The notes beneath the pieces are model-generated. The model ran no database searches. It was not told where the DNA came from and was given only the letters and a program-made list of their open reading frames with translations. Shown in pieces: positions 23,307 to 42,891 of a stretch of DNA of 64,000 nucleotides. Source of the stretch: Prochlorococcus sp. MIT 1314 (GTDB lineage Bacteria; Cyanobacteriota; Cyanobacteriia; PCC-6307; Cyanobiaceae); the NCBI RefSeq assembly GCF_034093315.1, contig NZ_CP139300.1, forward strand, positions 1,488,001 through 1,552,000. Direction: 5' to 3'. Position numbers and translations under genes: made by a program. The first letter of the stretch is position 1. Every line of letters begins with the position of its first letter.

Positions 23307-23380
23307 TACTTAAGACAAGCTATTTGAAATTATAAGATTGTTTTTATCCGCATTGCTTATCTTCACCATTAATACAGTAT

Positions 23381-23497
23381 CTGGTTGCTTCGGTATTTAG
23401 TCTCATTTCACATGAAATTACCATTAAGGTTTTTAAGCAAAAATATCCAAATTCAGAAGATATTTACGTCATTCAGGACTTATTCAAAAAATCTTGA
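23381..23497 (+). pseudogene. Start-less copy of the YPNxEDIYVIQDLF small-protein family
   Basis: An open stretch ends KVFKQKYPNSEDIYVIQDLF and then KKS and a stop. It matches the intact 51-aa gene at 51280-51435 (FKNKYPNAEDIYVIQDLFKR). Back to the in-frame stop at 23333 there is no ATG, GTG or TTG; the first plausible codon is a CTG at 23381. It is either a decayed copy or uses a rare start. Confidence 0.45.
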
Positions 23498-23550
23498 TCT
23501 TATTTAACTAAAATCATATTTTATCTAAACTAAATTATTTAAATAAATTA

Positions 23551-23576
23551 GGAATCAAAAAAATTTAGAGGAACTA
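23551..23576 (+). promoter_or_regulatory. Island promoter motif, copy 1
   Basis: GGAATCA, 13 nt, then GAACTA, ending 33 nt before the ATG of the TPR gene at 23610. A perfect match to the two-block element shared by nine units in this island. Proposed -35 and -10 boxes of an alternative sigma factor. Confidence 0.75.
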
Positions 23577-23609
23577 TACATACTCAAATACTTATAAATA
23601 AAACTTGAA

Positions 23610-24347
23610 ATGACCTTAAAAAAAGGATGGGGTTATTGGAAATATGAAGGTGAAGAAGCAGAACGAAATGGCGACTTTAATAAGGCTTTGGAACTTTATT
23701 CTTTGGCGATTATAGAATGTCCATCTAATGAAGATGCATTTATTTCTAGAGGTTATGTCAAATGTGATCTTCGTGAATTTGACGGTGCAATCGATGATTT
23801 TACTGAAGCAATTGAGATAAACCCTAGAAACAAATATGGTTATATAAATAGAGCTTATGTTAATTTGCAATTTGAAAATTTTGAAGATGTTCTGATTGAT
23901 TCAACAAAGGCTTTAGAAATTGACTATTCGGATAAAGATGCATTTGTTAATAGAGGTATGGCAAATCTATTTCTTAATAATTTTGATGATGCTATACAAG
24001 ACGCAACTGAATCTATCTATCTTGATAAATATGATAAGGGTTACTTCATTAGAGGATTAGCTAAATATAGGAAAAGAGATTTTAATAAGGCAATATTTGA
24101 CTTTTCGAATGCAATTAATTATCGTTCCGGTTTTTCATGGCAGTGTCTTTTTTTTAGAGCTGTTGCACGCTCAAGAAACAATAATTATGAGGATGCTTTA
24201 GATGATTTCAAATCATTTATTGGTAAAAACGAAATGAGAAGAATTCAATTATTTAAAGATAATCTTGCTCAAAATAAAGATATTTTGAATGATATTCCTG
24301 AGGAAATGATTAGTCTTATAAGGCTTAATATTGGAAATTATTTTTAA
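23610..24347 (+). CDS. TPR-repeat protein, 245 aa
   Basis: A cytoplasmic protein (no signal peptide) with about six tetratricopeptide repeats from residue 8 to 210; typical units are FNKALELYSLAIIECPSNED and FDGAIDDFTEAIEINPRNKY. TPRs form helical superhelices that bind other proteins. The last 30 residues (FKDNLAQNKDILNDIPEEMI) match the ending of the TPR gene at 36360, suggesting a paralogous family with a conserved C-terminal cap. It is preceded by the island promoter motif. Confidence 0.85.
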   Translation: MTLKKGWGYWKYEGEEAERNGDFNKALELYSLAIIECPSNEDAFISRGYVKCDLREFDGAIDDFTEAIEINPRNKYGYINRAYVNLQFENFEDVLIDSTKALEIDYSDKDAFVNRGMANLFLNNFDDAIQDATESIYLDKYDKGYFIRGLAKYRKRDFNKAIFDFSNAINYRSGFSWQCLFFRAVARSRNNNYEDALDDFKSFIGKNEMRRIQLFKDNLAQNKDILNDIPEEMISLIRLNIGNYF

Positions 24348-24352
24348 GCAAT

Positions 24353-24562
24353 TTATTTGTTTTTTATTGCAATTACTAAATCCATCACAGCCCTTACGCC
24401 CTCTATAAGGATTTTTATTTCAGAAGGACCAACATTCTCAACATTATTTTCCTCTTTATTTATATATTCTATTATCTCATCTATATCTTCTGACATTTGT
24501 CTTAGCCTCAATTTTATATCAATTTTTTTTTCTCTTATGCTGCCTTTGTGCCATTTTGCCAT
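24353..24562 (-). CDS. Small coiled-coil hypothetical protein, 69 aa
   Basis: A mostly helical, highly charged protein (REKKIDIKLRLRQMSEDIDE, then SEIKILIEGVRAVMDLVIAI). The strand choice is supported by a perfect island promoter motif 29 nt upstream of the ATG, located within the 3' end of the next gene. The opposite strand is also open here but has no such signal. Function unknown. Confidence 0.65.
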   Translation of the reverse strand: MAKWHKGSIREKKIDIKLRLRQMSEDIDEIIEYINKEENNVENVGPSEIKILIEGVRAVMDLVIAIKNK

Positions 24563-24586
24563 TTTCTGAATTTAAAAGGATCAAAT

Positions 24587-25162
24587 TTATATAGTTCTCT
24601 TTTTTTTAAGATGATTCCATTCATAATTAGTTAAAAATATCAACTTATCTCCATATTTAAAATTTTTGAGCAATTTATAATTTTCTTTGCTTAAGAAATT
24701 ATGTTTTGCCTTGAACTTTCTTCCCTTAAATGAGATTTCATTTTCAAGAATTCCTGTTTTAATATTTATAAATTTTTTTTCTTGAAATAAATTATCTTCC
24801 CATCCCCAACCCCAAATTATTTTTTCCCCTTCAAATTTAATAAAGTCTTTAGCCTTTTTTGTTTTTTGGTTTTGTAATTCTCTAACTGAGTACCTTATAA
24901 GATTCTTGGGGGAATTTCTATATCCGAAGAAATCATGAAGTGTTCCATCTTCAAAAATTCTTTTAGAAATTTTAAGATGCGGATTTTTAAAATTATTGCC
25001 AGAAAGTTTGTTTTCTTCAATTAATTTCTTTTCAAGATTGATTTTGATTAAATATTTATTCGGTAATTCAAGATCCAATTTTTTATTAATATTTTCATAT
25101 TTTTCAGAAATATGATTATATTCATGTGTTTCTTCAAAATGAAATTCTATAACTGCACTCAT
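24587..25162 (-). CDS. Hypothetical island protein, 191 aa
   Basis: A basic soluble protein of unknown family. Notable segments are IFEDGTLHDFFGYRNSPKN near residue 90 and KFEGEKIIWGWGWEDNLFQE near residue 130, with a beta-rich look between. It has no signal peptide and no helix cluster. It carries its own perfect island promoter motif, so it belongs to the presumed regulon. Confidence 0.6.
   Translation of the reverse strand: MSAVIEFHFEETHEYNHISEKYENINKKLDLELPNKYLIKINLEKKLIEENKLSGNNFKNPHLKISKRIFEDGTLHDFFGYRNSPKNLIRYSVRELQNQKTKKAKDFIKFEGEKIIWGWGWEDNLFQEKKFINIKTGILENEISFKGRKFKAKHNFLSKENYKLLKNFKYGDKLIFLTNYEWNHLKKKRTI
24592..24618 (-). promoter_or_regulatory. Island promoter motif, copy 2
   Basis: On the minus strand: GGAATCA, 14 nt, GAACTA, ending 29 nt before the ATG at 24562. 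Perfect match. It sits inside the last codons of the 191-aa gene, so it is not ordinary spacer sequence. Confidence 0.75.
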
Positions 25163-25187
25163 TTTAAATTTATTATTTCCTAATTAT

Positions 25188-25214
25188 TAGTTCTCTGTTT
25201 TGTAAGATGATTCC
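25188..25214 (-). promoter_or_regulatory. Island promoter motif, copy 3
   Basis: On the minus strand: GGAATCA, 14 nt, GAACTA, ending 25 nt before the ATG at 25162. Perfect match, divergent from copy 4. Confidence 0.75.
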
Positions 25215-25240
25215 TTTCTAACAAGAAGTGAAAAGTTCCA

Positions 25241-25266
25241 GGAATCAATTTTTGATTTCAGAACTA
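25241..25266 (+). promoter_or_regulatory. Island promoter motif, copy 4
   Basis: GGAATCA, 13 nt, GAACTA, ending 31 nt before the ATG at 25298. Perfect match. Copies 3 and 4 lie back to back, 26 nt apart, each facing its own gene. Confidence 0.75.
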
Positions 25267-25297
25267 TTTAATAACTAGATTTAATAATTTATTTTTT

Positions 25298-26044
25298 ATG
25301 GAAAATGCATCAAATGAACTTGCTTTAACCTTTCAAAATCTGGGTTATTCAAGACATCAAAAGGGTGAATATAAAGATGCCTGCGAAGATTATTTGAGAT
25401 CAATTGAAATTAATCCAAATAATGGAAAGACCCATTATCTTATGGGTTTAAGTCTGACAAAACTTGGACTTTATGATGATGCAATTTCAAGATTCGAAAA
25501 AGCTATAGATGTTGATAAGAATAATTCATCAATTTATTATTATAACTTGGCTAAATTAAAGTTTAAACAAAAGGATTTTCAAGGAGCAATTAAAGGTTAT
25601 ACCTCATTTATTGATAACGATACTAAGCTTAAGGAAACTGATGTGATTTATCTCAAAGCTTATTTTGAAAGAGCAAATGCAAATAGAAATTTGAATAATA
25701 GATTTGAAGCTATCCTCGATTGGGCTTATGTTGTTGAACTAGTAAAATTAAGAAATCAGCTGACATTGGAAGATGAAGATATATATGAAAAATCAAATGA
25801 TTTTGGTGATTTTCTTAGAATGAAAAATGAAAGAAATTTTAGAGATCATGAAATTTATGCTGAAGCTTCATATCAATTATCAAGGGAAAGAATTTCAGAT
25901 CTAAGAACCCACGAAGAATTAAAGAAATTATCAACTATTGATAAATTAGCTTTGTTTGATGATCTTGAAATGTATGAAGAATGGATTAAATCAGAATATA
26001 GTCCAAAGGCTTTAAAGAAAAAAAAGAGAAATAGGGAGATATAA
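25298..26044 (+). CDS. TPR-repeat protein, 248 aa
   Basis: About four TPR units in the first 150 residues (KGEYKDACEDYLRSIEINPN, LYDDAISRFEKAIDVDKNN, FQGAIKGYTSFIDND). The C-terminal 100 residues are charged and helical without clear repeats and end in a very basic KALKKKKRNRE tail, which could bind nucleic acid or a membrane surface. No signal peptide. Driven by a perfect island motif. Confidence 0.8.
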   Translation: MENASNELALTFQNLGYSRHQKGEYKDACEDYLRSIEINPNNGKTHYLMGLSLTKLGLYDDAISRFEKAIDVDKNNSSIYYYNLAKLKFKQKDFQGAIKGYTSFIDNDTKLKETDVIYLKAYFERANANRNLNNRFEAILDWAYVVELVKLRNQLTLEDEDIYEKSNDFGDFLRMKNERNFRDHEIYAEASYQLSRERISDLRTHEELKKLSTIDKLALFDDLEMYEEWIKSEYSPKALKKKKRNREI

Positions 26045-26057
26045 TCTCGAGAATTAT

Positions 26058-26756
26058 TTAAATACTATCGATTTTTATTTTTCTAAAAGCTTCCTTAAAA
26101 TATAAATCTTCACATATTGGATTTATATTGGGGTCTAATTCTAAACCTCTGTTCAAATCATTAATTGCACCAGTGTAATCTTCTAATTTTAATCCTCTAA
26201 TATCTGATCTTTTGAAGTATAGATCTGCTTTAAATGGATGAATTTTAATTGCTAAAGATAGGTCTTTTTCTGCACCATGAAATTCTCCTAACATTTCCTT
26301 AACTAATGCACGTTTTTCAAATAGATAATGATCATCAGGATTTAATAAAATTGCTATACCGTAATCATCTATTGCACCTTCAAAGTCAAGTAAATTCTCC
26401 TTTGTTATTGCTCTTAATTCATAAGCATCTTTATTATTTGGATTTAATTTAATTACTTCATTGAAATCTGATAATGCAGATTTATATTCTTTCAAAGCAA
26501 GTTTAGCTGAGCCTCTCTCGATAATAAAAAAATAACTTTTTGGATTTAACAAAATAGCAATATTTAAATCATCGATTGCACTTCTATAATTTAATTGATC
26601 TATAAAACAAATAGACCGATAATAATATCCACAAGTTTTGTAAGGTATAGATATTATTGCATCTGAATATTTTTTAATAGCCTCATCATAATTTCCATTA
26701 AATTCTTCCTCAAGACCTTCACTGATTAAAAATTCATATCTATATATATTGGACAT
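26058..26756 (-). CDS. TPR-repeat protein, 232 aa
   Basis: Six near-regular TPR units fill almost the whole protein (NYDEAIKKYSDAIISIP, NYRSAIDDLNIAILLNPKS, EYKSALSDFNEVIKLNPNN, DFEGAIDDYGIAILLNPDD, EFHGAEKDLSLAIKIHP, DYTGAINDLNRGLELDPNI). It is cytoplasmic and convergent with the TPR gene at 25298, with 13 bases between them. Its own island motif lies upstream. Confidence 0.85.
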   Translation of the reverse strand: MSNIYRYEFLISEGLEEEFNGNYDEAIKKYSDAIISIPYKTCGYYYRSICFIDQLNYRSAIDDLNIAILLNPKSYFFIIERGSAKLALKEYKSALSDFNEVIKLNPNNKDAYELRAITKENLLDFEGAIDDYGIAILLNPDDHYLFEKRALVKEMLGEFHGAEKDLSLAIKIHPFKADLYFKRSDIRGLKLEDYTGAINDLNRGLELDPNINPICEDLYFKEAFRKIKIDSI

Positions 26757-26786
26757 TTTGTATAAGTTAAAAAGTATATATATACC

Positions 26787-26813
26787 TAGTTCCGAGTTCT
26801 AAATATTGATTCC
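26787..26813 (-). promoter_or_regulatory. Island promoter motif, copy 5
   Basis: On the minus strand: GGAATCA, 14 nt, GAACTA, ending 30 nt before the ATG at 26756. Perfect match. Confidence 0.75.
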
Positions 26814-26830
26814 TTATCTATCCATAAATA

Positions 26831-27673
26831 TTAAAAAGTTTTATTTTGAAAAACAAATTCACCATTTTCTGAAAAATCAATTTCATTTATTAAATAACTC
26901 AATATATGAACTTCAATATCTTTTTTTGTTTTGCTAATGAATTCTAAATAAGCATTTAAAAAATCATTTGCATAAATGCATCCATCAAAGTCATCATCTG
27001 ACATAGTTTTTTTTGCCTCCCACCAATTAATTTTCTTTTTATCATTTGCTAATTTCTCAGCCCAATTATTTTTTATTAATCTTAGATTTTTAAAAAAAGT
27101 TTCAATTGATTCATAAAGTTTTATTTTACTTATGAATGAAAGCTCGATTATATCCTTACCCGTATATTCTCCATTATATTTCCATGCGCATCTTAAACAT
27201 AGAAAAAAATGTGCCTCAATAAATTCTTGTTTTAATTTTAATGATTTATGGTAATCCTTCTTCAATTCTACGAATTCTAACTCATCTAGGAATACGCTTC
27301 CTTTTTTTAAGTCTTTTTTATTGGTTTTAAACCATTTAGATAATTGAGCTAATTCATGAAATTTGGGTATCTTATTATTTTCCAAATAATATTCATTTAA
27401 AATCAAATTCTCATCTATTATTTCAATTATTGAATTCATATTCCATAAAAAAAGATCATAAATATCTTCACTTTCTTTTATGAAATTATCTTCCTCAGGT
27501 GATGCATGAAGCCAATCTATTTCTTCTAAATCTCTTATAAAAGAATAAGTTTTATCTTTTTTTATAATTTTCTCAAGATCATAAACAAAAATCGAATTCT
27601 TTTCATTTAAAAAAAGATCTCTTTGAAAATAATTAAAAGGATTAATATTTTCTTTTTTTAATTCTGATTTCAT
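26831..27673 (-). CDS. Hypothetical island protein, 280 aa
   Basis: A soluble, helix-rich acidic protein of unknown family. Segments that may help identify it: DLEEIDWLHASPEEDNFIKE near residue 50, AHFFLCLRCAWKYNGEYTG near 165 and WWEAKKTMSDDDFDGCIYAN near 220. It lies downstream of the MoxR-VWA pair on the same strand but has its own island motif (one mismatch) at the end of the VWA gene, so it can be expressed separately. A role with the MoxR-VWA pair is plausible from position. Confidence 0.6.
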   Translation of the reverse strand: MKSELKKENINPFNYFQRDLFLNEKNSIFVYDLEKIIKKDKTYSFIRDLEEIDWLHASPEEDNFIKESEDIYDLFLWNMNSIIEIIDENLILNEYYLENNKIPKFHELAQLSKWFKTNKKDLKKGSVFLDELEFVELKKDYHKSLKLKQEFIEAHFFLCLRCAWKYNGEYTGKDIIELSFISKIKLYESIETFFKNLRLIKNNWAEKLANDKKKINWWEAKKTMSDDDFDGCIYANDFLNAYLEFISKTKKDIEVHILSYLINEIDFSENGEFVFQNKTF

Positions 27674-27697
27674 TAGTTTTTTTATTCTTTTACTATT

Positions 27698-27723
27698 TAG
27701 TCATCGTTTTCTATATTGATTCC
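27698..27723 (-). promoter_or_regulatory. Island promoter motif, copy 6 (one mismatch)
   Basis: On the minus strand: GGAATCA, 13 nt, TGACTA (consensus GAACTA, one mismatch), ending 24 nt before the ATG at 27673. It overlaps the last codons of the VWA gene. Confidence 0.6.
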
Positions 27724-28898
27724 AAATTACTTTTATTAAGTCTTATAACCTCTCCAAAAGTAAAATATTCACTTTCTTGGCCTCCAGGAGTAATCACCCA
27801 AAGAACAGGTAATTCAGGAGTTTTAATTGGTAAATAAGCGAAGCCATCGGTTAAATATATACATACTGCATCTTTTTGAAAAGTATTAATTTTTTCTACT
27901 TCTTCAAAGAAAGGATCAAAACTAGTAAAACCTCCACCTTCTGGACCAGGAATATCTTTTTCTTTATCAATATCAAAAGGACCATATAATTCAGTATCTG
28001 CGTACCAAAGTTTGCATACTAAATTTGGGTAAGAATTAACAATTCCACTAAGTTCACTTAAGAACTTTTCTAATTCTTCTGTTGATACAGAGCCACTTGT
28101 ATCTATACAGCAAAAAATAAATACTGTCTCACCTTTTAATTCCTCAACATAAATTTCATTATGAATAAATCTTCTATCAAATCCTTCAAAATCATTTGGA
28201 GTTCTAACTAGAAATCTCCATAAATGAGCTTTCCAGTTTATTTCTGGCTTAGTTATTTCATCACAATGCCTTTTGAAGGATTCAGGAATATTTTTCTGAT
28301 CAGATTGCTTTGCTACTAAAAGAGAATCACTTATTGCTTTTTTCCAAAATTGCTTTTTTGCATTTTGTTTATTTAACTCGTCTAATTCATCTAATTGTTT
28401 ATTAGCTTTATTCGAATTAACCTTGTTATTTTCATGTACTAAATCATCAATAGGTAGATTTATTTTCTCTTTCTTTTTGAGTAATATTTCATAAATCTCT
28501 TCTACTTTTAGACTTTCTAAATCTTCATCTCTTATAGCATTAGCAGGTAATTTTACTGAAGGCTCTGATGCAATCATGCCATTGACAACTATATCCGCCG
28601 CAATATTGAAAATATAATTATCTCTCTCGCCCTGTCTCGAGCAATGTAATAGAGCCATATGTAAAAGCTCATGCAGAAAAATTGCATCCCTTTCTTTAGG
28701 TTTGAAATTAATATAATTTTGAGGATGAAAAAATATCTTTTGACCATCAGTCGCAGCTATAGGAAATTCTTTAGTAAATTCAATTTCTGCATACATTGAA
28801 AGTGAGGCGAAAAATGGAGAAGATTGCCTTAGTCTTAAACGTGTAGCACTTATGTAATTAAATAATTCTGAAGTATCTTTTTCTTTTTTATTTTTCAT
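27711..28898 (-). CDS. VWA-domain protein with HExxH metallopeptidase-like N-terminus (DUF2201 type)
   Basis: A 395-aa protein. The N-terminal domain holds HELLHMALLH with a zinc-type HExxH at residues 76-80 and NIAADIVVN shortly after, as in DUF2201 proteins. The C-terminal von Willebrand A domain has the MIDAS motif DTSGS at 266-270 and later YLTDGFAYL. Such proteins work with MoxR-type AAA+ ATPases in assembling or remodelling complexes. Its ATG overlaps the stop of the upstream MoxR gene (ATGA), so the two are translated together. Confidence 0.85.
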   Translation of the reverse strand: MKNKKEKDTSELFNYISATRLRLRQSSPFFASLSMYAEIEFTKEFPIAATDGQKIFFHPQNYINFKPKERDAIFLHELLHMALLHCSRQGERDNYIFNIAADIVVNGMIASEPSVKLPANAIRDEDLESLKVEEIYEILLKKKEKINLPIDDLVHENNKVNSNKANKQLDELDELNKQNAKKQFWKKAISDSLLVAKQSDQKNIPESFKRHCDEITKPEINWKAHLWRFLVRTPNDFEGFDRRFIHNEIYVEELKGETVFIFCCIDTSGSVSTEELEKFLSELSGIVNSYPNLVCKLWYADTELYGPFDIDKEKDIPGPEGGGFTSFDPFFEEVEKINTFQKDAVCIYLTDGFAYLPIKTPELPVLWVITPGGQESEYFTFGEVIRLNKSNLESI

Positions 28899-29917
28899 TT
28901 AATAATCAACTCCTGATAATTTTTTAAATATTTCTGCATTTGAGGATCGCCCATTACAACTTTTGCTAGAGAGGTAAGTTGTTTTTTTTCTTTAAAATTG
29001 GCAACTATATCAGACGCAAATACCTGGATCCATTCAGGAGTTGTATTTTTGAAAAGCCACTGAAAAACTTCTTTCACCTCTTCCGCTTTATCAGCTCTTT
29101 TAGTTAGGCCTGTTATGGTTGCCCATTGTGTTGATACCTGTTTGGGGAAATTTATTTTTTCTCCATTGCCTTTGATTATTTGAGCAAGATTAGGAAGGTT
29201 TTTATATACATTTAAAAATGAATTAAATTCTTCAGCTGCACCATCTCCAATTGCAGTATTAATTGGAAGATTAAGTTTAAATAAGTTGCTTGCCATTTCC
29301 CAGGATCTTGGAGATGGCCATGCCTTTTCCTCAAAATTTACTTTATGCAGTAAGGTAGGTCTGAATCCAAGAAAACTTATTATTTCTTCTGGTAAATCTT
29401 TTTTAAGAGCGTGAGATTTAAAACAAGAAAAATTTACATCTACATCTAAATGAAGAAAGCGATTATTTAGAGGTGTAGGCATTTCAAAGACTGATGCACG
29501 ATCTTCCTTCCTATTACCAGCGGCCCAAATAAGCCAATCTTTAGGAACCCTATAATTGCCAATTTTCCTATCAAGTATCAGTTGTTGTGCTACGCCCTGC
29601 ATTGCAGGAGGTGCCATATTTATTTCATCAAGAAATAATATACCTTTTCCTGCTTTTGGAAGAAATTCTGGAGGATACCATTTAGAAATACCTATTTCTG
29701 TTTTGCTTTTAGGATGAATTGCTACAGGAAGTCCTCTAAGATCAGTAGGAGCTAATTGACTGAGTCTTAAATCAATAAAATCATATCCTTTATTTTTTGC
29801 GGCCTGGCTTACAATACTTGATTTTCCTATCCCAGGAGGACCCCATATCATTGCACTTATAGTTAGTTCTTCAGAAATTAATCTTTCTAGAAACGCAGTT
29901 AATTGGGATGGAGTCAT
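28895..29917 (-). CDS. MoxR-type AAA+ ATPase
   Basis: A 340-aa AAA+ ATPase. Walker A is GPPGIGKSS near residues 26-34, Walker B ILFLDEINMAPPAMQ near 93-107 and the sensor-1 region WLIWAAGNRKED follows. I chose the ATG at 29917: the frame extends to 29986, but the island promoter motif lies between the two starts and would be inside the longer version. MoxR ATPases act as chaperones for metal insertion and complex maturation, usually beside a VWA partner, as here. Confidence 0.88.
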   Translation of the reverse strand: MTPSQLTAFLERLISEELTISAMIWGPPGIGKSSIVSQAAKNKGYDFIDLRLSQLAPTDLRGLPVAIHPKSKTEIGISKWYPPEFLPKAGKGILFLDEINMAPPAMQGVAQQLILDRKIGNYRVPKDWLIWAAGNRKEDRASVFEMPTPLNNRFLHLDVDVNFSCFKSHALKKDLPEEIISFLGFRPTLLHKVNFEEKAWPSPRSWEMASNLFKLNLPINTAIGDGAAEEFNSFLNVYKNLPNLAQIIKGNGEKINFPKQVSTQWATITGLTKRADKAEEVKEVFQWLFKNTTPEWIQVFASDIVANFKEKKQLTSLAKVVMGDPQMQKYLKNYQELIIK

Positions 29918-29944
29918 TAATAAAAAAATAAATTTATCTATTAA

Positions 29945-29971
29945 TAGTTCTTTTCTTTCAAACGTGATTCC
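29945..29971 (-). promoter_or_regulatory. Island promoter motif, copy 7
   Basis: On the minus strand: GGAATCA, 14 nt, GAACTA, ending 27 nt before the ATG at 29917. Perfect match; it drives the MoxR-VWA unit. Confidence 0.75.
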
Positions 29972-29995
29972 AAATAATTTCCTCAAATATAATTA

Positions 29996-32917
29996 GTGTT
30001 ATTATTTTTAAATACTTATAGTAAGAAATTTAATGGTCTATATCAGATGATTAAAAGTGCAAAAAATATAGGCTTTATTTTCGTTTTAATTTCAATTACT
30101 GTTTTAACTGGAAGATTTTTTTTAAACTCTAAAAATAATTTTATAAATACTGAAAGAACCAATATTGAAAGAAGGACTATTTATGAAAAGCTTAAACCAT
30201 TACTAGATAAAGCAAAATTAGCTTCTGATCAAGGCGATTATTTAAAGGTTATTAATATACTTAAACAAATAAACCAAAAAATTAATATTCTTAATGATTC
30301 AGAACTCCAAAAAAATATCTATAGAGGTAAAAACCTTAATGCTATAGCTCAAAATTATCAAGCTATTGGATATTTTAAAGAGGCTGAGGATTCTTATCTT
30401 AAAGCTGCAAAAGTTTATTTAGATATTCCTTTTAAAGAGAATTCTCAATATGTTTTAGAAAACTATTTATATTTATCTAATCTATATTCCGAAATAGAGG
30501 ATTATGATAGAGGTATAGCAACTTTGCTGATCGCAAATAATTTAATAGAGGAACAAATTGGAAAAAAAATACCTGAAAGTTATATTATTGCTGGGGAAAT
30601 TGGAGAATTATATTTAGATAAAGGTGAATTTCTAAGCGCAGAAGTTTTTATTGAAGCCGCGATAAAAGGTTTAGAGGAACTTAATATAAATCATGAAATG
30701 AAAAGTAAGTATCAACTTGAATTGGCAGATTTATATATAAGACAAAAAAAGTATATAGAGTCTGAAAAACTACTTAGCCAGTTAATCAAAAAAAAATACT
30801 ATAAAAATCCAAATATTTTTATAGCATTATCAAATGTTTTATTGTCTCAAGGCAAATTTAATGAAGCTGAAAAAATTGCACTCCAGCTAATAAAAGAAAA
30901 TAAAGAAAATTATAATCTTAAAAGTAATCCAGATTATCCATATCTAGTAGCAAATATTGCTTACATTTATGATTATCAAAAACTTTTTTTAAAATCTCAA
31001 CCATATCACCTTAGCTTACTTAATCCTGATTATGATCTCTCATATTTAGATAATGATTTTAAAATATCAATATTGAACAATGTAGCTCATAATTTATTGA
31101 GTTTAGGATCCTATGAAGAAGCTGAACGTTTGCTTAATTTTGCAATTGAAGCTAACAAAATTAGATTCTCAGATGCGGATGAAAAATATATAAAGCCATT
31201 ATCTAATCTTTCACTACTTTATTATCTTCAAGGAAGACAAGATGAATCAAATAAATATGGATATCAAGCTTTACAAAAGACTTTTGAATCTATGCAAAAA
31301 AGAGTCCAAGAATTGAATATTTTGGATAGACAAAATTTTATTTCTGATTCATATCAGAAATTTCATTTATTTCCTTTTGCATTTATTGAAAAAGATAGCT
31401 CTTATAAAAACTTGGCATTCTTTTCAAGAATAAATTATCAGGGTTTATTACAGGATATAGAAAGTAGACAAAATAGATTAAAAATTCTTGATCCTGAAAT
31501 TAAGCAGTTAAGAAATAATCTAAAACTTATAGAAAGTAAATTATCTTCAAATAAAACCTTAAACTATGAAAAATTTAGAAGAGAACTATTCTCAAGGAAA
31601 ATCGAACTTGAAAAATCTTTAAATGTATTATTACCTAAATTAAATCCAATAATTTATGACGCCGAGGATATAGCAAGTGTAATCCCAAAAGATTCTGTAT
31701 TAATTGAATATCAAAAGTATGATAGTGCAAAAAAAGAACCTTTTAAGAATTTAAAACCCAAGGAAAAATATTTAGCTTTGATTCTTTCTCCTGATGGAAA
31801 TATTTCATCTTTTGATTTGGGTTCTGCGGAAGTTATTGAATCAATGATAAATGCTGCAACTAAAGCTACTAAATTAAAATCAAATAATGCTTTGCAAAAA
31901 TGGAGAGAAGTTAGTGATCTTATTATAAAACCTCTTACTGAAGAAATTAATCAAAAAGATAGATTAATCATTTCGCCTGATTCTGCCCTAAATAAAGTTG
32001 CATATTCTGCATTGGGATCACCTTTAAGCGAGAACTTATTAAATGATGATTTTCAAGTAAATTTAATTACCGCAGGTAGAGATTTATTGGAGATTAATCA
32101 AGCAAATTCTCATAAAAGTACTATGCCCATTGTTATTGCAAATCCTGATTTTGGAAAACCAAAGTCAAATATCAGGAGATTTAAAAATATAAAAAGCGAT
32201 TTTTATAAAAGAACTGAAACCGAAATATTAGAGTATAAATTAGACCTAAAAGGTACCTCATCACAATCATGGAAACTTCTTCCTTTCTCCAAACTAGAGG
32301 GACAAGATATTAAAGAAATAATTAATGCACAACTTTTTATGAATGAAGAAGCAAAAGCTTCATTGATATTTGAAAATAATATTTCTCCAAAAATTATTCA
32401 CATAGCAAGTCATTCTTTTTATCATGATGCTTATTATGATTCAGCAATTGAAGACTATAATAAAAATCCGCTTAATCGAACCGGAATAGTATTTGCAGGA
32501 GCAAATTTAAATTTTGAAAATGATAATGATGATGGATTTTTAACTGCGTTAGAAATTTCAAGACTTGATCTTAGAGGGACTGAATTATTTGTTGTATCCG
32601 GTTGTGAATCTGCAATGGGAGACTTAAGAATTGGAGAAGGTATTTATGGTTTAAAAAGATCTATTGCAGTAGCAGGGGCTCAATCAAGTTTGCTTTCTTT
32701 ATGGAATATAAGAGATGATTCAACGGCGATATTTATGACTTCTTTTTATAAAAGACTTAAGAAAGGGGAAACAAAATCTGAGGCTTTATATAGCACTCAA
32801 AGAGATTTTAGAGAGGGTAAAATCAAAAGCAGTAATCCTGAATTATATGATTGGAGTAAGCCATTTTATTGGGCGCCTTTTCAATTAAGTGGGGATTGGA
32901 AGTCTATAGAATTATAA
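29996..32917 (+). CDS. Membrane-anchored TPR-CHAT caspase-like protease
   Basis: A 973-aa protein. A transmembrane helix at about residues 25-45 (IGFIFVLISITVLTGRFF) is followed by many TPR units to about residue 450, a linker and a C-terminal CHAT domain. The CHAT catalytic pair is visible: His806 in IIHIASHSFYHD and Cys870 in VVSGCESAMGD, with LSLWNIRDDSTAIFM downstream as in the family. CHAT proteases are caspase relatives activated by partner proteins. The first start is GTG; an ATG at 30047 gives a tighter N-terminus. No island motif precedes it. It converges on the DUF1822-like gene. Confidence 0.88.
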   Translation: MLLFLNTYSKKFNGLYQMIKSAKNIGFIFVLISITVLTGRFFLNSKNNFINTERTNIERRTIYEKLKPLLDKAKLASDQGDYLKVINILKQINQKINILNDSELQKNIYRGKNLNAIAQNYQAIGYFKEAEDSYLKAAKVYLDIPFKENSQYVLENYLYLSNLYSEIEDYDRGIATLLIANNLIEEQIGKKIPESYIIAGEIGELYLDKGEFLSAEVFIEAAIKGLEELNINHEMKSKYQLELADLYIRQKKYIESEKLLSQLIKKKYYKNPNIFIALSNVLLSQGKFNEAEKIALQLIKENKENYNLKSNPDYPYLVANIAYIYDYQKLFLKSQPYHLSLLNPDYDLSYLDNDFKISILNNVAHNLLSLGSYEEAERLLNFAIEANKIRFSDADEKYIKPLSNLSLLYYLQGRQDESNKYGYQALQKTFESMQKRVQELNILDRQNFISDSYQKFHLFPFAFIEKDSSYKNLAFFSRINYQGLLQDIESRQNRLKILDPEIKQLRNNLKLIESKLSSNKTLNYEKFRRELFSRKIELEKSLNVLLPKLNPIIYDAEDIASVIPKDSVLIEYQKYDSAKKEPFKNLKPKEKYLALILSPDGNISSFDLGSAEVIESMINAATKATKLKSNNALQKWREVSDLIIKPLTEEINQKDRLIISPDSALNKVAYSALGSPLSENLLNDDFQVNLITAGRDLLEINQANSHKSTMPIVIANPDFGKPKSNIRRFKNIKSDFYKRTETEILEYKLDLKGTSSQSWKLLPFSKLEGQDIKEIINAQLFMNEEAKASLIFENNISPKIIHIASHSFYHDAYYDSAIEDYNKNPLNRTGIVFAGANLNFENDNDDGFLTALEISRLDLRGTELFVVSGCESAMGDLRIGEGIYGLKRSIAVAGAQSSLLSLWNIRDDSTAIFMTSFYKRLKKGETKSEALYSTQRDFREGKIKSSNPELYDWSKPFYWAPFQLSGDWKSIEL

Positions 32918-32921
32918 AAAT

Positions 32922-34121
32922 TTATAAGCATTTATTATTATTTATTACTGTAGATTTCGCTTTCTCAATAATTTTTGAATCAGGTGCTTTTTCTGAAAAA
33001 AGAAGTGCCAAAGCCATATCTTGCTCTTTTTTAAGTTTATTATTTATATTTTTTATCCAAGCAGATTTACTACTCCCAATCTTTTTGATTTCATTAGAAA
33101 GCTTTTTAAATGATTTTTGCGGACTAGCTTTTAAGGTTATATCTAAATATTCCTCGGAAGATATACCATTCTGCGCGAAGCTAATAAGATATTCTTCATT
33201 TGGCTCTACAGGTTTAATTGGCCATTGAATTGGTTTATATGATTTTTTATTGGAGTTAATTTCTCTTGACCAGATAATTTCCCCATTCTTTGAAATTATA
33301 ATTTTTTCAACTTTAGTTTTTGGAAAAATTAAGGGTTTATCAAAAGATAAATTAACAATATTTTTTGTACCATCAAATGATGAATTGGGACTTAATAAAC
33401 AAATTTTTATATTATTTTCCTCAGAACTACTTCTTGTATATATAGGCTCTAATTTATTTGCTGAAATAGAGGCAAGATTATAAAGTAATCTTGGTTTGAA
33501 AAGGGATGGTGTGGCAAATATACCAGCTAGAATTAATAGACCTAAACTTAATTTTTTTCTATGAAAAATTAAATTATCTAATAAATTTATTCTTATTTTA
33601 CTTCCTCTTAATCCTTCTCTGGATAGAGCTTCTAAATCTAGAATTTGAATCATTGAAAGAAATCTATTTATGCCACCTTTAAAAGAGTTAATTGGAATAT
33701 TTACATATTTATTTTTTGGATTAGGTTCTTTAATTAGGTTCTTAAATTCTTTTTCAGTAATTAATCCAGGGAATTCGATTAAACCATTTTCTTCATCTAT
33801 GCTCATCGCAAGAATTAATTGAGGAGCTGAGTTCTTTTTGTACCATCTTTTCAAAGGAATAATTGCCTCATCAGAACTTATTCCTGTAATTACTATTTGA
33901 ATATAAAACTTGTTTATCTCAACTAAACAATCTAAATCTTTAATACTTGAAATTAATTTGACTTCAAGATTTAAGTTTTCATCAGAAATAACTTTTTTCA
34001 AAGCAACTATAGAAGCTTGATCAAGACTTTTTACTTTTTCTATATCTATAGACACTGCACTATCAGAGATAGGTTTTGCCTCAAAGAAATTATCATCAGA
34101 ATTAGTCAATTTTCCCTTCAT
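32922..34121 (-). CDS. Membrane protein, DUF1822/DUF928-like
   Basis: A 399-aa protein. The N-terminal 160 residues recall DUF1822 (DEAIIPLKRWYKKNSAPQLI, then FPGLITEKEFKNL). One hydrophobic helix lies near residues 193-210 (LSLGLLILAGIFATP). The C-terminal part recalls DUF928 (KIIISKNGEIIWSREI, PVEPNEEYLISFAQ). Both families are found in cyanobacteria near sigma-like regulators and CHAT proteins. Its ATG overlaps the stop of the upstream sigma-like gene (ATGA). I infer a membrane partner, perhaps an anti-sigma-like regulator. Family assignment is by eye and tentative. Confidence 0.55.
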   Translation of the reverse strand: MKGKLTNSDDNFFEAKPISDSAVSIDIEKVKSLDQASIVALKKVISDENLNLEVKLISSIKDLDCLVEINKFYIQIVITGISSDEAIIPLKRWYKKNSAPQLILAMSIDEENGLIEFPGLITEKEFKNLIKEPNPKNKYVNIPINSFKGGINRFLSMIQILDLEALSREGLRGSKIRINLLDNLIFHRKKLSLGLLILAGIFATPSLFKPRLLYNLASISANKLEPIYTRSSSEENNIKICLLSPNSSFDGTKNIVNLSFDKPLIFPKTKVEKIIISKNGEIIWSREINSNKKSYKPIQWPIKPVEPNEEYLISFAQNGISSEEYLDITLKASPQKSFKKLSNEIKKIGSSKSAWIKNINNKLKKEQDMALALLFSEKAPDSKIIEKAKSTVINNNKCL

Positions 34122-35476
34122 TTTTTAATCAAATAATTGACGGTATCCTGCAAAATAGATGTATTTTTATTTGATTGTCTTTTAGTAATATATTCAATCA
34201 AACTATTTATAACTTTATCTATTTCTAAAGGACTTGTTTTCATCCCTTTAAATTCCTTAAGATCCTTTAGTTTTAATGCTGTTTTAAGTGAGATTTTTTC
34301 TGCTAAGGTTTTTTCTTTTAATAATTTACTAACCCACCCTTGCTTATGGTTGCATTTCTTTGCTATGTCTCTTTGGCTATATCCTTTTGAATATAGTTGC
34401 CATGCCAATTTTCTATCTTTATCTCTAAGCCATATTATTTTTTCTTTTTTAAAAATAATTTCTAAGGTATCTTTTGCTAATTCTTTTGATAGTTTCTTAA
34501 TTAGATATATTTGTCTTTCTTCTTTAATTTGATCCTCATTGCTAGATGCTTCGTATTTTTTTTCTAAAAGAAATTGTTTAATTGATGGCATAGATTCAGG
34601 AGACTTTAATCCTTTCTCATATTTTCTGATTGCAGCAGCAATACATTCCAAATTATCTAATGTACTTTGTTTGGGATTTAAGGTATTAATAAATGCCTGA
34701 TTAGGTACCCAACCACTAATCCTTCCATACTTTTTTTTGTATGCTGCTTTGGCCTTCTTATAATTGATAAGATAACTTTTGTGAAGACTAATAATCTCAT
34801 CATTATTTATTTTTAAGGTATTAAATTCCTTGCAGGCTTCTAAAATCCTTTTTGTACTCGTATCAGCAATTAAAGACCAGTCACTTTGTAATCTTAAATT
34901 ACATTTAACCAGATATTTTTTTAGGCTAGTCTCTGATTTGATTTGATGAGTAGTCCAGGTGTCTAGGCTAGATAATTTTTTATTGAAGGTTTTTATTATT
35001 TTTGCAGAGAATGGATATAAATTATTAGAGGTTATGATTGATAAACTTCGCCAATTAAAAGGTTTTTTAAATTTTTTGTCGTTTACTGATGAAGTTTTTA
35101 TAAATTTTTCTCCTCTATCATTCAATACATATGAAAGCATTGTTAGATAATCTATTTCATGTAATTCCTTATGCTTTTTATAGAGATAATCTATATTTTT
35201 CTTTATAGGATCACTTAACCTGCATCTTATACATAAGATTGGATAAATGCTTTCTGAAAACTTTTTACTCAGTTCTAATAACATATTATCCGATGCTTTA
35301 GATTTGATTTCAGAAACTATATTGTTTTTATCAAGATATTTACTGCAGACATTAAAGTTCTTTTCTTTTATATCTTTTCCGAAAGAATTTAAATAAATTA
35401 AGGTTTCGTAAGGTGTGTTCAATATTGACGAGAAATTTAAATTCTGACTAAGTATACAATTAATTTTCATTTTCAA
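34118..35476 (-). CDS. Sigma-70-like regulator of the long cyanobacterial ECF-like type
   Basis: A 452-aa protein. The middle (SSLDTWTTHQIKSETSLKKY, then LQSDWSLIADTSTKRI, residues 169-211) resembles the core of long cyanobacterial sigma-like proteins that sit next to DUF1822 genes. A helix-turn-helix at residues 357-386 (YSKGYSQRDIAKKCNHKQGW, then VSKLL) fits sigma region 4. It should bind promoter -35 boxes if it is a sigma factor. It is coupled to the membrane protein gene downstream and lacks the island motif itself, so it is not obviously autoregulated. It could instead be a plain DNA-binding regulator. Confidence 0.62.
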   Translation of the reverse strand: MKMKINCILSQNLNFSSILNTPYETLIYLNSFGKDIKEKNFNVCSKYLDKNNIVSEIKSKASDNMLLELSKKFSESIYPILCIRCRLSDPIKKNIDYLYKKHKELHEIDYLTMLSYVLNDRGEKFIKTSSVNDKKFKKPFNWRSLSIITSNNLYPFSAKIIKTFNKKLSSLDTWTTHQIKSETSLKKYLVKCNLRLQSDWSLIADTSTKRILEACKEFNTLKINNDEIISLHKSYLINYKKAKAAYKKKYGRISGWVPNQAFINTLNPKQSTLDNLECIAAAIRKYEKGLKSPESMPSIKQFLLEKKYEASSNEDQIKEERQIYLIKKLSKELAKDTLEIIFKKEKIIWLRDKDRKLAWQLYSKGYSQRDIAKKCNHKQGWVSKLLKEKTLAEKISLKTALKLKDLKEFKGMKTSPLEIDKVINSLIEYITKRQSNKNTSILQDTVNYLIKK

Positions 35477-35497
35477 GTAGATGACTTAAATAAAATT

Positions 35498-35523
35498 GGA
35501 ATCAAAAGATATTTTCAGAACTA
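35498..35523 (+). promoter_or_regulatory. Island promoter motif, copy 8
   Basis: GGAATCA, 13 nt, GAACTA, ending 28 nt before the TTG start at 35552. Perfect match. It lies between the sigma-like gene and the two-gene TPR unit and points only at the latter. Confidence 0.75.
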
Positions 35524-35551
35524 AATAGGATTAGTTAATTATTAAACTATC

Positions 35552-36367
35552 TTGGTACAAACAACATTAAAATATGCATATAGTGAAAATCAAGATTTAT
35601 TTGGATCTTTTCTGAATGAGTCTTCAGTTAAGCTTGGTCATCAGGACTATTTTGGGGCTATTGAAGCTGTTACTAAAGCTATAAATTTAAATAATAAATA
35701 TCCAATTCCATTTATCAGGAGAGCAGGGATAAGATACAAGATTAAAGATTATAAAAATGCAAATTATGATTTAAGAGAAGCTTTTAAATTGAAAAAAAAT
35801 TGTCCAGAAAATTATTTATTTAGAGCTTACTTCTTAGCTTATTCGATAAATAAAAACCTTGAAAATAGTAAAGATGCCTTTATTAATTTAGAAAAAGCTA
35901 TAAATCTGAGGAATTCATCAAAAGCAGAAATATGGCCAATTGAGATTTATTTTTTATATGAAAAAAAGGGCGACTTTTTAAAAGAGTCAGGTAAATATGA
36001 TCATGCAATTTTTGAATATTCAAAAGCGATTGGATCATATATTAGTGATCCAATTTCTAATGCGAGACTGCATTCTAAAAGAGGCTGGTTAAACTATCAT
36101 GAAAGAAATTATGCATATGCAATAAATGATTTTTCTATAGCAATAAAGAAAGCTAAACAAATAGATAAATATCATTACTTCATGGCAAGAGGATTTTCTC
36201 TGATAAAGATTAATAATCTCGAAGCTGCTTTTGACGATTTTAAAAATGCTTTGGAATGTAATCAACTTGCAATTGAATTTTATAAAGATTTTTTTTTGAA
36301 TTTTGTTGAACGAGAAATTTGTAATTTGCTACAGGTTTATTTTGAAATAAGGCTAAAAAATGATTAA
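35552..36367 (+). CDS. TPR-repeat protein, 271 aa
   Basis: About six TPR units (DYFGAIEAVTKAINLNNKYP, DYKNANYDLREAFKLKKN, KYDHAIFEYSKAIGSY, NYAYAINDFSIAIKKA, NLEAAFDDFKNALECN). The start is TTG, supported by the promoter motif spacing. It overlaps the next TPR gene by 8 bases, so both come from one mRNA with coupled translation. No signal peptide. Confidence 0.82.
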   Translation: MVQTTLKYAYSENQDLFGSFLNESSVKLGHQDYFGAIEAVTKAINLNNKYPIPFIRRAGIRYKIKDYKNANYDLREAFKLKKNCPENYLFRAYFLAYSINKNLENSKDAFINLEKAINLRNSSKAEIWPIEIYFLYEKKGDFLKESGKYDHAIFEYSKAIGSYISDPISNARLHSKRGWLNYHERNYAYAINDFSIAIKKAKQIDKYHYFMARGFSLIKINNLEAAFDDFKNALECNQLAIEFYKDFFLNFVEREICNLLQVYFEIRLKND

Positions 36368-37034
36368 AAAGAAATTTTATAAATTATCACCCTCTATCAA
36401 AGCTGAAAAGATAGCAACAAGAGCAAAGAATTGTGATGATGAAGTAAATTATAAATATGCAATTATGGAGATATCTAAAGCTCTAGAAGTAAACGATGAA
36501 TGTGAAACTACATATTTTATAAGAGGAGATTTATACTCCCAAATGGATGGATATCATGATCAAGCTATTAGCGACTTTACTAAGGCAATTGAATTAGATC
36601 CAAATGATTTCGCAAAATATAATGCTAGGGGAAGGGCATATCTAAAAGCAGAAAAATATGAAAATGCCATTAATGATTTTACAAAAGTAATTGAGATGAG
36701 TATGTCAACTTTACTGATGGACTCTTCTTCAGTTTTTGAAGAGAGAGGTTTTGCATTTTTAAAATGCGGATTTTTTGGTAAAGCAATTAGTGATTTTTCA
36801 GAATCATTGAAAGATTCCGAAGATGAGATTAAGTTTTTGTGCAGAGCTATGGCATTAGCTAAAAATGATAATTATGATGGAGCATTAAATGACTTGATAG
36901 CAGCATCAAATATTAACGGTAATTGCCTAAAGGAGAATAAAAACTTTTTATCCGATTTTCCAAAAGATTTTAAAGCAATTTTATTTATACATTTCCCTAA
37001 AAAATATCTTGATGATTTGAATTTATCTATTTAA
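36360..37034 (+). CDS. TPR-repeat protein, 224 aa
   Basis: Four to five TPR units (HDQAISDFTKAIELDPNDF, KYENAINDFTKVIEMS, FFGKAISDFSESLKDS). The C-terminal segment (LKENKNFLSDFPKDFKAILF) resembles the ending of the TPR protein at 23610, so the two appear to be paralogues. It is second in a unit with the TPR gene at 35552. Confidence 0.82.
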   Translation: MIKKKFYKLSPSIKAEKIATRAKNCDDEVNYKYAIMEISKALEVNDECETTYFIRGDLYSQMDGYHDQAISDFTKAIELDPNDFAKYNARGRAYLKAEKYENAINDFTKVIEMSMSTLLMDSSSVFEERGFAFLKCGFFGKAISDFSESLKDSEDEIKFLCRAMALAKNDNYDGALNDLIAASNINGNCLKENKNFLSDFPKDFKAILFIHFPKKYLDDLNLSI

Positions 37035-37043
37035 ATTAAAGAT

Positions 37044-37526
37044 TTATTTTGAAATCTCAGAAGAAGATTTCTCTCTAAAACTTTTAAAGGCAGGATTGTT
37101 TTGTGCAATATCTATTTTATGTTGGGCTACAGGCAACTCATTGAAAAGAATATGATAAGAGGCTATCAGTCCTATCGATATAGTACTTATAACTCCAGGT
37201 GCGGAAGTCAGGTTGATAAAAAATAAAATAATTCCAACTGCAAAGAAAATATTAAAAATATAAAAATTTCTCATAAAGTTGATTTTCATTAAGAGAGGAG
37301 TTGAATGTCTAAGCCAAGACATACTGAATATGCATATTGGATAATTGAATAAATAAATCAAGTAAATAAATTCCTTGAATCTAAAGGCTAGTATTATAGG
37401 AACTATTATTGCTGCAGCAGTGGTTACTGTTGAAAGTAAGTTCCCAATAAATAATTTAAAGGAATAATTAGTCACTGCATCCATATATTTTTTGGCCGCC
37501 CTGTCTTCCTCTTTAGTGAAATTCAT
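37044..37526 (-). CDS. Hypothetical membrane protein, 160 aa
   Basis: Four hydrophobic segments (about residues 22-48, 52-66, 85-104 and 108-125) between a charged N-terminus (KEEDRAAKKYMDAVTNYSFK) and a polar C-terminal tail with HKIDIAQNNPAFKSFREK. Family not recognised. It is convergent with the TPR unit and has no island motif upstream, unlike its divergent neighbour. Confidence 0.6.
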   Translation of the reverse strand: MNFTKEEDRAAKKYMDAVTNYSFKLFIGNLLSTVTTAAAIIVPIILAFRFKEFIYLIYLFNYPICIFSMSWLRHSTPLLMKINFMRNFYIFNIFFAVGIILFFINLTSAPGVISTISIGLIASYHILFNELPVAQHKIDIAQNNPAFKSFREKSSSEISK

Positions 37527-37531
37527 AATAA

Positions 37532-37558
37532 AGAATCATCAATACCTATTCAGAACTA
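37532..37558 (+). promoter_or_regulatory. Island promoter motif, copy 9 (one mismatch)
   Basis: AGAATCA (one mismatch to GGAATCA), 14 nt, GAACTA, ending 27 nt before the ATG at 37586. Confidence 0.6.
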
Positions 37559-37585
37559 AAGATATCTACAAATAATATTATTTAA

Positions 37586-38446
37586 ATGACATTTCAGGAT
37601 TTTCTGAGAAACTCTTCAGTTTATTTTTCAATTATTTCTTTAATAATTTCAATAACTTTGCTTGGATTTTACATAAGAAATAGGTCTCAGTTATTCATGC
37701 CTGATGAATATAAAACTATTAAGCGTATCGTAAGCAAAGTTGCAGATAGTAATAATCTTGGAAACCATCCAATTACTTTTACAATTATTTCTGGCAGCAG
37801 GGTCTACTGGATAGCAAAATCTTTAGGTGTATGTTCTGAGGATTTTTGTTACTTTATGAGGAATATAAATCCATTTATTCAGTATAAAGGAAAGTCGGCT
37901 GAGGAATTGAATGAAGCTATTCGTCAGACATACATTGTAAATGGAATAGAAGCCTACGCTTGGCCTAATGGGACAGTGGCAATTAGTCGTTCATCTTTCA
38001 GAAGTGCTTCTGACAGGGAATCTTATCTTGCTTTTGTAATTGGCCATGAAATTAGTCATATATTAAATAATGATAGTTTTCAGAATTCTCTTCGTACCAG
38101 TAAAGAGGGATTAGGTTTAAAACCAAAAAAAAAGACACTCATTGGCTATGGCATTTCCAGAGAAGCTGAAAGTAAAGCAGATATTAAATCCGCAGAGATG
38201 CTAATAAATGCAGGCTATTTAAAAGAAACTCCAGTGGAGGCTCATGATTTTTTTGCAAGGCTTAATGGGTATGGCTATGCAACTGAGAAGGATAGCAGTC
38301 ACCCAGGGTATGAGGAGAGGAGAAAAAATCTTAAAAAGTTCATAGCCAAATATAAAGAAAAAGATTCAGATAATTCAAATAGAACAAATGGTAAGTGGAT
38401 TTATAACAGGAAAGAAAATACTCTGACTTTCAAAGTTCAGTATTAG
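37586..38446 (+). CDS. M48-family membrane metalloprotease
   Basis: A 286-aa protein. One N-terminal transmembrane helix (about residues 15-30) is followed by a peptidase M48 domain. The zinc motif HEISH is at residues 154-158 (VIGHEISHILNND); the third ligand is expected in SREAESKADIKSAEM near 190-200. The end region (DSSHPGYEERRKNLKKF) is typical of M48 enzymes. Family members degrade or trim envelope proteins. It is the last unit with the island motif, placing a protease in the presumed regulon. Confidence 0.87.
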   Translation: MTFQDFLRNSSVYFSIISLIISITLLGFYIRNRSQLFMPDEYKTIKRIVSKVADSNNLGNHPITFTIISGSRVYWIAKSLGVCSEDFCYFMRNINPFIQYKGKSAEELNEAIRQTYIVNGIEAYAWPNGTVAISRSSFRSASDRESYLAFVIGHEISHILNNDSFQNSLRTSKEGLGLKPKKKTLIGYGISREAESKADIKSAEMLINAGYLKETPVEAHDFFARLNGYGYATEKDSSHPGYEERRKNLKKFIAKYKEKDSDNSNRTNGKWIYNRKENTLTFKVQY

Positions 38447-38520
38447 TAATTTTTTGCTGAAGTTAATTTATTTATGAAGAAAAATTTGTGATCGTTTTAT
38501 ACGTCCAATCCCTTTAAATA

Positions 38521-38540
38521 CCCCCCCCCAAGGGGGGGAG
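38521..38540. repeat. Poly-C/poly-G hairpin between convergent genes
   Basis: Nine C, two A and seven G form a very stable 7-bp hairpin in otherwise AT-rich DNA, midway between the stop codons of the M48 protease and the integrase. There is no T-run, so it is not a standard terminator, but it may block transcription or be a slippage-prone recombination scar. Confidence 0.7.
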
Positions 38541-38548
38541 TTATTAAT

Positions 38549-41639: not shown

Positions 41640-41684
41640 ATAAACTTTAATTCTCTTTATTCATGATTAATTGAAACTCCCAAA

Positions 41685-41712: not shown

Positions 41713-41760
41713 GGACAAATCACGGAGAATTAATCAAAAAATTAGCTATGGCTTGTAAAC

Positions 41761-42882: not shown

Positions 42883-42891
42883 AGAATAAAT

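Follow-up and report, generated by a model that had tools for sequence, protein, structure and literature searches.

A repeated two-block element in a Prochlorococcus cassette, likely a promoter for the cassette's own sigma-like protein

Background

In the type III-E CRISPR system CASP-sigma, the CHAT protease Csx29 cleaves Csx30, an inhibitor of a sigma factor, according to PMC10028731, which also mentions regulated proteolysis in the RseA/DegS/sigma-E system. In this study, a stretch of 64,000 nt from contig NZ_CP139300.1 of Prochlorococcus sp. MIT 1314 (hereafter the window) was analyzed, in which a cassette of about 15 kb contains copies of the two-block element GGAATCA-N13/14-GAACTA and genes for a sigma-like protein (SIG), a candidate membrane inhibitor of 399 aa and a TPR-CHAT protein. 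Judged from sequence, these repeats are likely -35/-10 promoter boxes read by the cassette-encoded SIG, a putative sigma-70-like protein; since the protein that would read them is encoded beside them, a transcription programme of its own is likely part of the cassette. The computed support is that perfect sites are confined to the cassette, precede most of its units, recur in other species with a SIG gene and vary by clade with SIG.

The locus resembles CASP-sigma (PMC10028731) in combining a TPR-CHAT protein with an inhibitor and a sigma factor, both of them candidates here, and in having sites for the sigma factor at the locus that encodes it. It differs in that the inhibitor candidate has a transmembrane (TM) segment, SIG is larger than an extracytoplasmic function (ECF) sigma factor, and cleavage is here putative; the likeness is one of design, with homology of the parts assessed for the CHAT domain alone. 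No Cas model was found among the Pfam matches of 19 window open reading frames (ORFs) scanned, and no CRISPR array search was made. The RseA/DegS/sigma-E system is likewise similar by design, in that a one-TM inhibitor candidate is encoded with the sigma and a protease possibly acts across the membrane, whereas the window sites are confined to one exchangeable cassette and CHAT stands in place of DegS.

Neighbourhoods of EACC2-caspase, ECF sigma and DUF1822 genes are described in PMC8195603, where the accessible text calls DUF1822 a TPR protein and gives it no promoter or anti-sigma role. The window is similar in placing a sigma-like gene beside a DUF1822-type gene and caspase-like proteins; however, its 399-aa protein has a TM segment and, lacking a Pfam DUF1822 match, resembles that family only in an N-terminal profile. 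The same text covers the MoxR-VWA ternary conflict systems, which share with the window adjacent MoxR and VWA genes as cargo, but the window MoxR barely matches bpMoxR (E 0.07) and its VWA partner is of the DUF2201 type. A literature search brought up no publication about either this promoter or a Prochlorococcus sigma island, with most subscription journals outside its coverage.

Results and discussion

Copies of the element and their positions

The pattern GGAATCA-N13/14-GAACTA, that is, block 1, spacer and block 2, was searched on both strands of the window and of the whole genome, which is one contig of 1,704,447 bases. The following sites precede genes of the cassette; predicted starts are given with the bases at -1/+1 in brackets.

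23551..23576, forward strand: perfect site, predicted start 23586 (CA), motif search
24592..24618, reverse strand: perfect site, predicted start 24582 (TG), within the 191-aa gene at its 3' end, motif search
25188..25214, reverse strand: perfect site, predicted start 25178 (GA), motif search
25241..25266, forward strand: perfect site, predicted start 25276 (CT), motif search
26787..26813, reverse strand: perfect site, predicted start 26777 (TA), motif search
27698..27723, reverse strand: weak site (TGACTA) with two mismatches, AA at the predicted start, position only
29945..29971, reverse strand: perfect site, predicted start 29935 (TA), motif search
35498..35523, forward strand: perfect site, predicted start 35533 (TA), motif search
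37532..37558, forward strand: one-mismatch site (AGAATCA), predicted start 37568 (TA), mismatch search

The seven perfect copies reported in the initial annotation were recovered at the same positions and on the same strands, and none was present in 100 dinucleotide shuffles of the window, in agreement with the earlier estimate that they lie far beyond chance. In the whole genome these seven were the sole perfect copies (the reversed control pattern gave 1 match), which extends to the entire genome, for perfect copies, the statement that nothing similar was seen in the rest of the window. Nine one-mismatch matches were found genome-wide (3 with N13 and 6 with N14), the AGAATCA copy being the sole one in the cassette. 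With up to two mismatches, 62 matches were obtained for spacer 13 and 80 for spacer 14; since the reversed controls gave 62 and 54, there is little or no excess at this level. The proposed scan of the complete genome found no perfect match outside the cassette.

In all nine sites block 2 ends 24–33 nt before the start codon, as first noted, and every site is oriented toward its gene. Two copies had been placed inside the 3' end of a neighbouring gene; one (24592-24618) is fully inside the 191-aa gene and the other extends partly into the VWA gene at its 3' end. The cassette has 12 transcription units, which together have 8 good sites and 1 weak site. A blind dyad search recovered the blocks in the window and in loci L132 and L131, in the latter two as GAACA.

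Promoter geometry and start signature

Ninety sites from 21 genomes were reduced to 68 non-redundant ones by dropping those with flanks at least 70% identical to a kept site. After block 2, T was found at position 9 in 54 of the 68 and A or G at position 10 in 55. Information was 0.67 bits at position 9, 0.52 at position 4 and 0.47 at position 10, and it did not exceed 0.29 at any of the remaining 22 positions among the first 25. The T at position 9 was present in 17/23 spacer-13 sites and 37/45 spacer-14 sites and, being kept for both spacers, is in register with block 2. This T-purine is an initiator-like signature that places GGAATCA near -35: taking position 10 as +1, GAACTA spans -15 to -10 and GGAATCA begins at -36 or -35. 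Five of the eight good window sites have the T-purine, and the remaining three have CA, GA and CT. A GGAA-type -35 box is known from sigma-E type systems.

Two leader-length classes were observed in L124, L128, L131 and other loci, and several of the long leaders (offsets 41–51) show a small inverted repeat in the printed sequence.

The sigma-like protein

Three genes of the cassette would form the regulatory part.

34118..35476, reverse strand: sigma-like protein SIG, 452 aa as listed (weak TIGR02937 match and predicted fold)
32922..34121, reverse strand: 399-aa candidate anti-sigma of the membrane (single TM segment predicted at 190-208; Cys241/Cys398)
29996..32917, forward strand: TPR-CHAT protein, 973 aa as listed, with an in-frame ATG at 30047 (Pfam CHAT, E 7.6e-53)

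A profile of SIG relatives gave 22 positives among 266 genomes of the genus, 18 of them strong (E 5e-120 or better) and 4 weak. SIG looks like a remote sigma-70 relative: TIGR02937 weakly matched 20 of 22 family members (E up to 0.1, best 7.6e-8), and all 50 fold matches listed for the predicted structure were sigma factors, with modest Z. A C-terminal, sigma-4-like helix-turn-helix (HTH) may be present, with weak matches at 351-390 and model helices at 353-404. The protein probably starts at TTG 35422 rather than at the listed start, as indicated by the beginning of the relatives' profile at 35422, a predicted local distance difference test (pLDDT) score under 50 for residues 1-18, and start codons. 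An assignment to the ECF sigma factors was also considered. In these, regions 2 and 4 are less than 50 residues apart by the definition in PMC11119718; in the SIG model the sigma-2 like part ends at about 195 and the HTH begins at about 353, too far apart for SIG to be filed there, and the assignment was rejected.

Several observations limit the case for SIG-read promoters. The TIGR02937 match to the window SIG was 20.4 bits (E 3.1e-4), not reaching the cut-off of 42.9, and the putative sigma identity is drawn from low-scoring similarity to sigma models together with the predicted structure. In the window cassette no site is directed at the CHAT gene, at the 160-aa gene or at the pair formed by the SIG and 399-aa genes. 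The TGACTA copy, with its two mismatches, is among many background matches and owes its place to position, so that eight of the nine sites first proposed (seven perfect and the AGAATCA copy) hold as good ones. In favour of the -35/-10 boxes of a dedicated sigma factor, as originally suggested, are the clustering of the sites in islands with the sigma-like gene, the T-purine register and the clade-wise variants of block 2.

It is improbable that the blocks instead serve as the operator of a conventional DNA-binding regulator, which might be the HTH protein at 34118-35476 itself, with a housekeeping sigma factor transcribing the genes. The HTH model PF13936 matches 15 of 22 SIG family members and the sigma match is weak, and a distance of about two helical turns between the blocks suits a dimer or an activator; however, the two blocks are dissimilar and non-palindromic, the T-purine keeps its distance from block 2 with either spacer, and no conserved TATAAT-like hexamer lies between block 2 and the T-purine.

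Co-occurrence and co-variation of sites and SIG

The relaxed pattern GGAATCA-N13/14-NAACTA was counted in the 266 genomes with a threshold of at least four sites per genome; locations are given for listed genomes. The threshold was reached by 15 of the 18 strong-SIG genomes, none of the 4 weak ones (one site each) and 3 of the 244 SIG-negative ones, so the suggested scan of related strains showed sites concentrated in genomes with a strong SIG match. Comparing strong with none, p was 8e-12 in the Mann-Whitney test and 7e-19 in the Fisher test, values that overstate independence because the genomes are related. The three SIG-negative exceptions, G013, G236 and G333, are 50, 82 and 82% complete. 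A single perfect site and no SIG were found in G005 (88% complete) and G073 (96%). In a locus of the latter (L072), the perfect site at 9797-9823 lies beside a CHAT gene and a PF04228-type peptidase gene, with SIG not found, and is possibly a relic. In a separate search, 25 of 197 relatives had one or more perfect sites; among these are lone matches in large genomes from other families, which are taken as chance. Of 17 loci with SIG relatives, 16 are from Prochlorococcus and 1 is from Cyanobium.

Block 2 was compared among genomes at [AG]GAATCA sites, the heterogeneity test using the 15 genomes with at least 3 sites and leaving out G297, G231 and G300. Block 2 was exclusively GAACTA in G000, G245, G049, G107, G231 and G217, and exclusively GAACAA in G285 (3/3) and G289 (6/6); its first base was not G in 4/8 sites of G011, 6/9 of G070, 1/1 of G297 and 1/9 of G270. 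Both types of heterogeneity exceeded all 2000 permutations, with independence overstated since related genomes share sites. The variants follow the clades of the SIG protein; G285 and G289 are long branches, placed in the SIG tree without confidence.

In the remote SIG lineage (G003, G009 and G278) no GGAATCA site was found. Each of these close relatives has two GAAACT-N13-GAACA sites, conserved among them, 26–34 nt before an ORF.

L075, 6756-6779 and 13206-13229: GAAACT-N13-GAACA sites of a remote SIG island
L076, 5774-5797 and 12209-12232: the same
L135, 11941-11964 and 18355-18378: the same

In the printed sequence a T-purine lies as far behind GAACA as it does behind block 2 elsewhere. Shuffled sequence yields just as many sites, and for this reason the sites are suggestive only; a co-diverged form of the promoter is possible.

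Real promoters used by another cellular sigma factor, with SIG linked merely as a member of the cassette, are a quite unlikely explanation. Five canonical sigma matches over the cut-off occur elsewhere in the window genome, and G005 and G073 retain good sites without SIG; yet SIG-less genomes have few or no sites although sigma factors of this kind are widespread, the window genome has no perfect site outside the cassette, and the block variants track SIG clades.

Candidate inhibitor, CHAT protein and peptidases

The 399-aa gene overlaps the SIG gene by 4 bases. Cys241 and Cys398 of its product lie behind the TM segment and are invariant in 23 aligned sequences. The protein had no Pfam match of its own, including DUF1822 (PF08852) at E 0.1, and its profile matched that of five proteins from DUF1822 loci with 88% probability over 140 columns, in the N-terminal part only. 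Inhibition of SIG by this protein is fairly probable. In 8 of the 18 strong-SIG genomes (G049, G107, G231, G212, G217, G267, G270 and G289) the SIG gene contains, at its 3' end, a site that points toward the inhibitor gene; AGAATCA is used in 6 of the 8, and the inhibitor start codon is at offset 51 in the seven genomes with a whole inhibitor gene. Such a site, driving the candidate inhibitor gene, would provide negative feedback in these eight relatives.

His802 and Cys870 of the CHAT protein are kept in 23/23 aligned CHAT proteins. By a simple hydropathy rule 17 of the 23, that of the window included, have an N-terminal hydrophobic segment. Release of SIG by the CHAT protein through cutting of the inhibitor is conceivable, at somewhat less than even confidence.

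M48 relatives were found in seven islands (G000, G245, G011, G070, G297, G285 and G081) and relatives of a PF04228-type peptidase, one member of which was scanned with Pfam, in eight (G111, G300, G202, G212, G217, G267, G270 and G289). The M48 peptidase (window 37586-38446) and the secreted PF04228-type peptidase (L072 13175-13933) alternate beside SIG/CHAT, never both in the fetched sequence; neither was found in the sequence fetched for G049, G107, G231, G251, Cyanobium, G003, G009 and G278. In large cyanobacteria SIG relatives are followed by DUF1822 proteins, and L077 4735-9746, from one of these, has an HD-domain gene, a SIG relative, a DUF1822 gene and a CHAT-CHASE2 gene in order.

In the proposed mechanism SIG would join the core polymerase and recognize the GGAATCA/GAACTA boxes, while the one-TM 399-aa protein would keep it at the membrane. 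Upon a signal the TPR-CHAT protein, perhaps with the M48 peptidase, would cleave this inhibitor, and released SIG would switch on the TPR, MoxR-VWA and peptidase cargo. We regard as tentative the full picture of a CRISPR-free, caspase-like gated module, in which an exchangeable cassette brings together a sigma factor with its membrane-bound inhibitor, a CHAT protease that frees the sigma factor, and a promoter code of its own that tags the cargo.

Cargo

The remaining genes of the cassette are as follows.

23610..24347, forward strand: TPR protein, 245 aa (Pfam TPR_1, E 9.3e-23)
24356..24562, reverse strand (stop codon excluded): 69-aa ORF downstream of the site at 24592-24618; relatives are similarly placed behind sites in L127 and L066
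24587..25162, reverse strand: 191-aa protein, no Pfam match
25298..26044, forward strand: TPR protein, 248 aa (Pfam TPR_2, E 2.1e-18)
26058..26756, reverse strand: TPR protein, 232 aa (Pfam TPR_2, E 1.3e-22)
26831..27673, reverse strand: 280-aa protein, no Pfam match
27711..28898, reverse strand: DUF2201 protein (putative metallopeptidase plus VWA-like), 395 aa (Pfam DUF2201_N, E 3.8e-25; DUF2201, E 2.6e-15)
28895..29917, reverse strand: MoxR-like AAA protein, 340 aa when counted from the ATG downstream of the site (Pfam AAA, AAA_5)
35552..36367, forward strand: TPR-like protein, 271 aa (Pfam TPR_2, E 1e-9)
36360..37034, forward strand: TPR protein, 224 aa, overlapping the preceding 271-aa gene (Pfam TPR_2, E 7.3e-16)
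37044..37526, reverse strand: 160-aa protein with predicted TM segments, without its own site (ORF scan)
37586..38446, forward strand: M48 peptidase, 286 aa, one N-terminal TM segment (Pfam Peptidase_M48, E 1.7e-14)

The target list of the initial annotation (five TPR proteins, MoxR-VWA, the M48 protease and three unknown proteins) stands, the 69-aa ORF being one of the unknowns. The listed 363-aa MoxR frame meets its promoter only via an upstream TTG, and the 340-codon ATG lies 27 nt past the site, a layout shared by relatives in L063 and L070; the DUF2201 gene overlaps the MoxR gene by 4 bases. MoxR and VWA relatives were found in G000, G245, G011, G013 and G070 and not in the other islands tested.

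Across the islands 98 sites were listed. For 93 of them an ORF of 40 codons or more begins no further than 130 nt away, at offsets of 22–36 (69 sites), 41–51 (21) or beyond (3). Forty-four of the 93 target ORFs, picked by eye as non-redundant and all outside the window genome, were scanned: 8 matched TPR_2, single members matched DnaB_C, DNA ligase, HNH and zinc-ribbon models, and 15 passed a crude signal-peptide rule. Cargo composition varies between genomes.

Borders of the cassette

23334..38560: exchangeable cassette between the conserved left border and the integrase (blastn borders versus G041, G203 and G022)
38549..39484, reverse strand: tyrosine-type integrase at the right border (Pfam Phage_integrase, E 1.2e-23)

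Blastn against three SIG-less genomes (G041, G203 and G022) aligned up to 23333/23334 and resumed at 38561 (38481 in G022). In the intervening 11–14 kb of these genomes, neither a tblastn search with 14 cassette proteins nor the relaxed site pattern gave a match. Since all window sites fall between the borders, perfect sites and cassette coincide in the window genome. G111 shares the left border, where its SIMPL protein is 97% identical, and has an integrase relative (84%), with a different SIG island between the two; integrase relatives with 82–92% identity adjoin SIG islands in G245, G111 and G267.

The motif is most unlikely to be a non-promoter repeat of a mobile or recombination system tagging cargo for exchange, for although its sites lie in an exchangeable cassette next to an integrase, with cargo that differs from genome to genome, conservation is limited to the blocks, spacer length and start signature, the start-codon distance is tight, and in seven genomes the sites inside SIG precede the inhibitor gene by an unchanging distance.

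The SIMPL gene of the left border (22236-23021) was present in 4 of 8 relatives checked, with two copies in G041. In the spacer separating the M48 gene from the integrase, close to the right border but still within it, a C run followed by a G run forms a short perfect inverted repeat (38519-38538). The region to the right of the integrase (39573-45228) is restriction-like, with ResIII/Mrr-type genes beside those for a UvrD-like helicase and an Mrr-type endonuclease. A stress or defence response would be consistent with cargo that includes TPR, MoxR-VWA, nuclease-like and secreted-looking products near Mrr-/ResIII-type genes.

Conclusions

For 14 Prochlorococcus species, a survey (PMC11119718) gives sigma factors of a single family, A.1. 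If the gated-module reading is true, cargo could be swapped between Prochlorococcus lineages and still obey the same switch, with the code co-diverging with the sigma factor. There would also be a testable role for DUF1822-like proteins, CHAT proteins would be linked with transcription beyond CRISPR systems, and specificity work could draw on naturally occurring pairs of sigma factor and promoter (GAACTA, AAACTA and GAACAA). Prochlorococcus is the textbook genome stripped of regulators; a cassette that supplies both a sigma factor and the matching promoter code would illustrate how a regulated function can be added to a reduced genome without rewiring.

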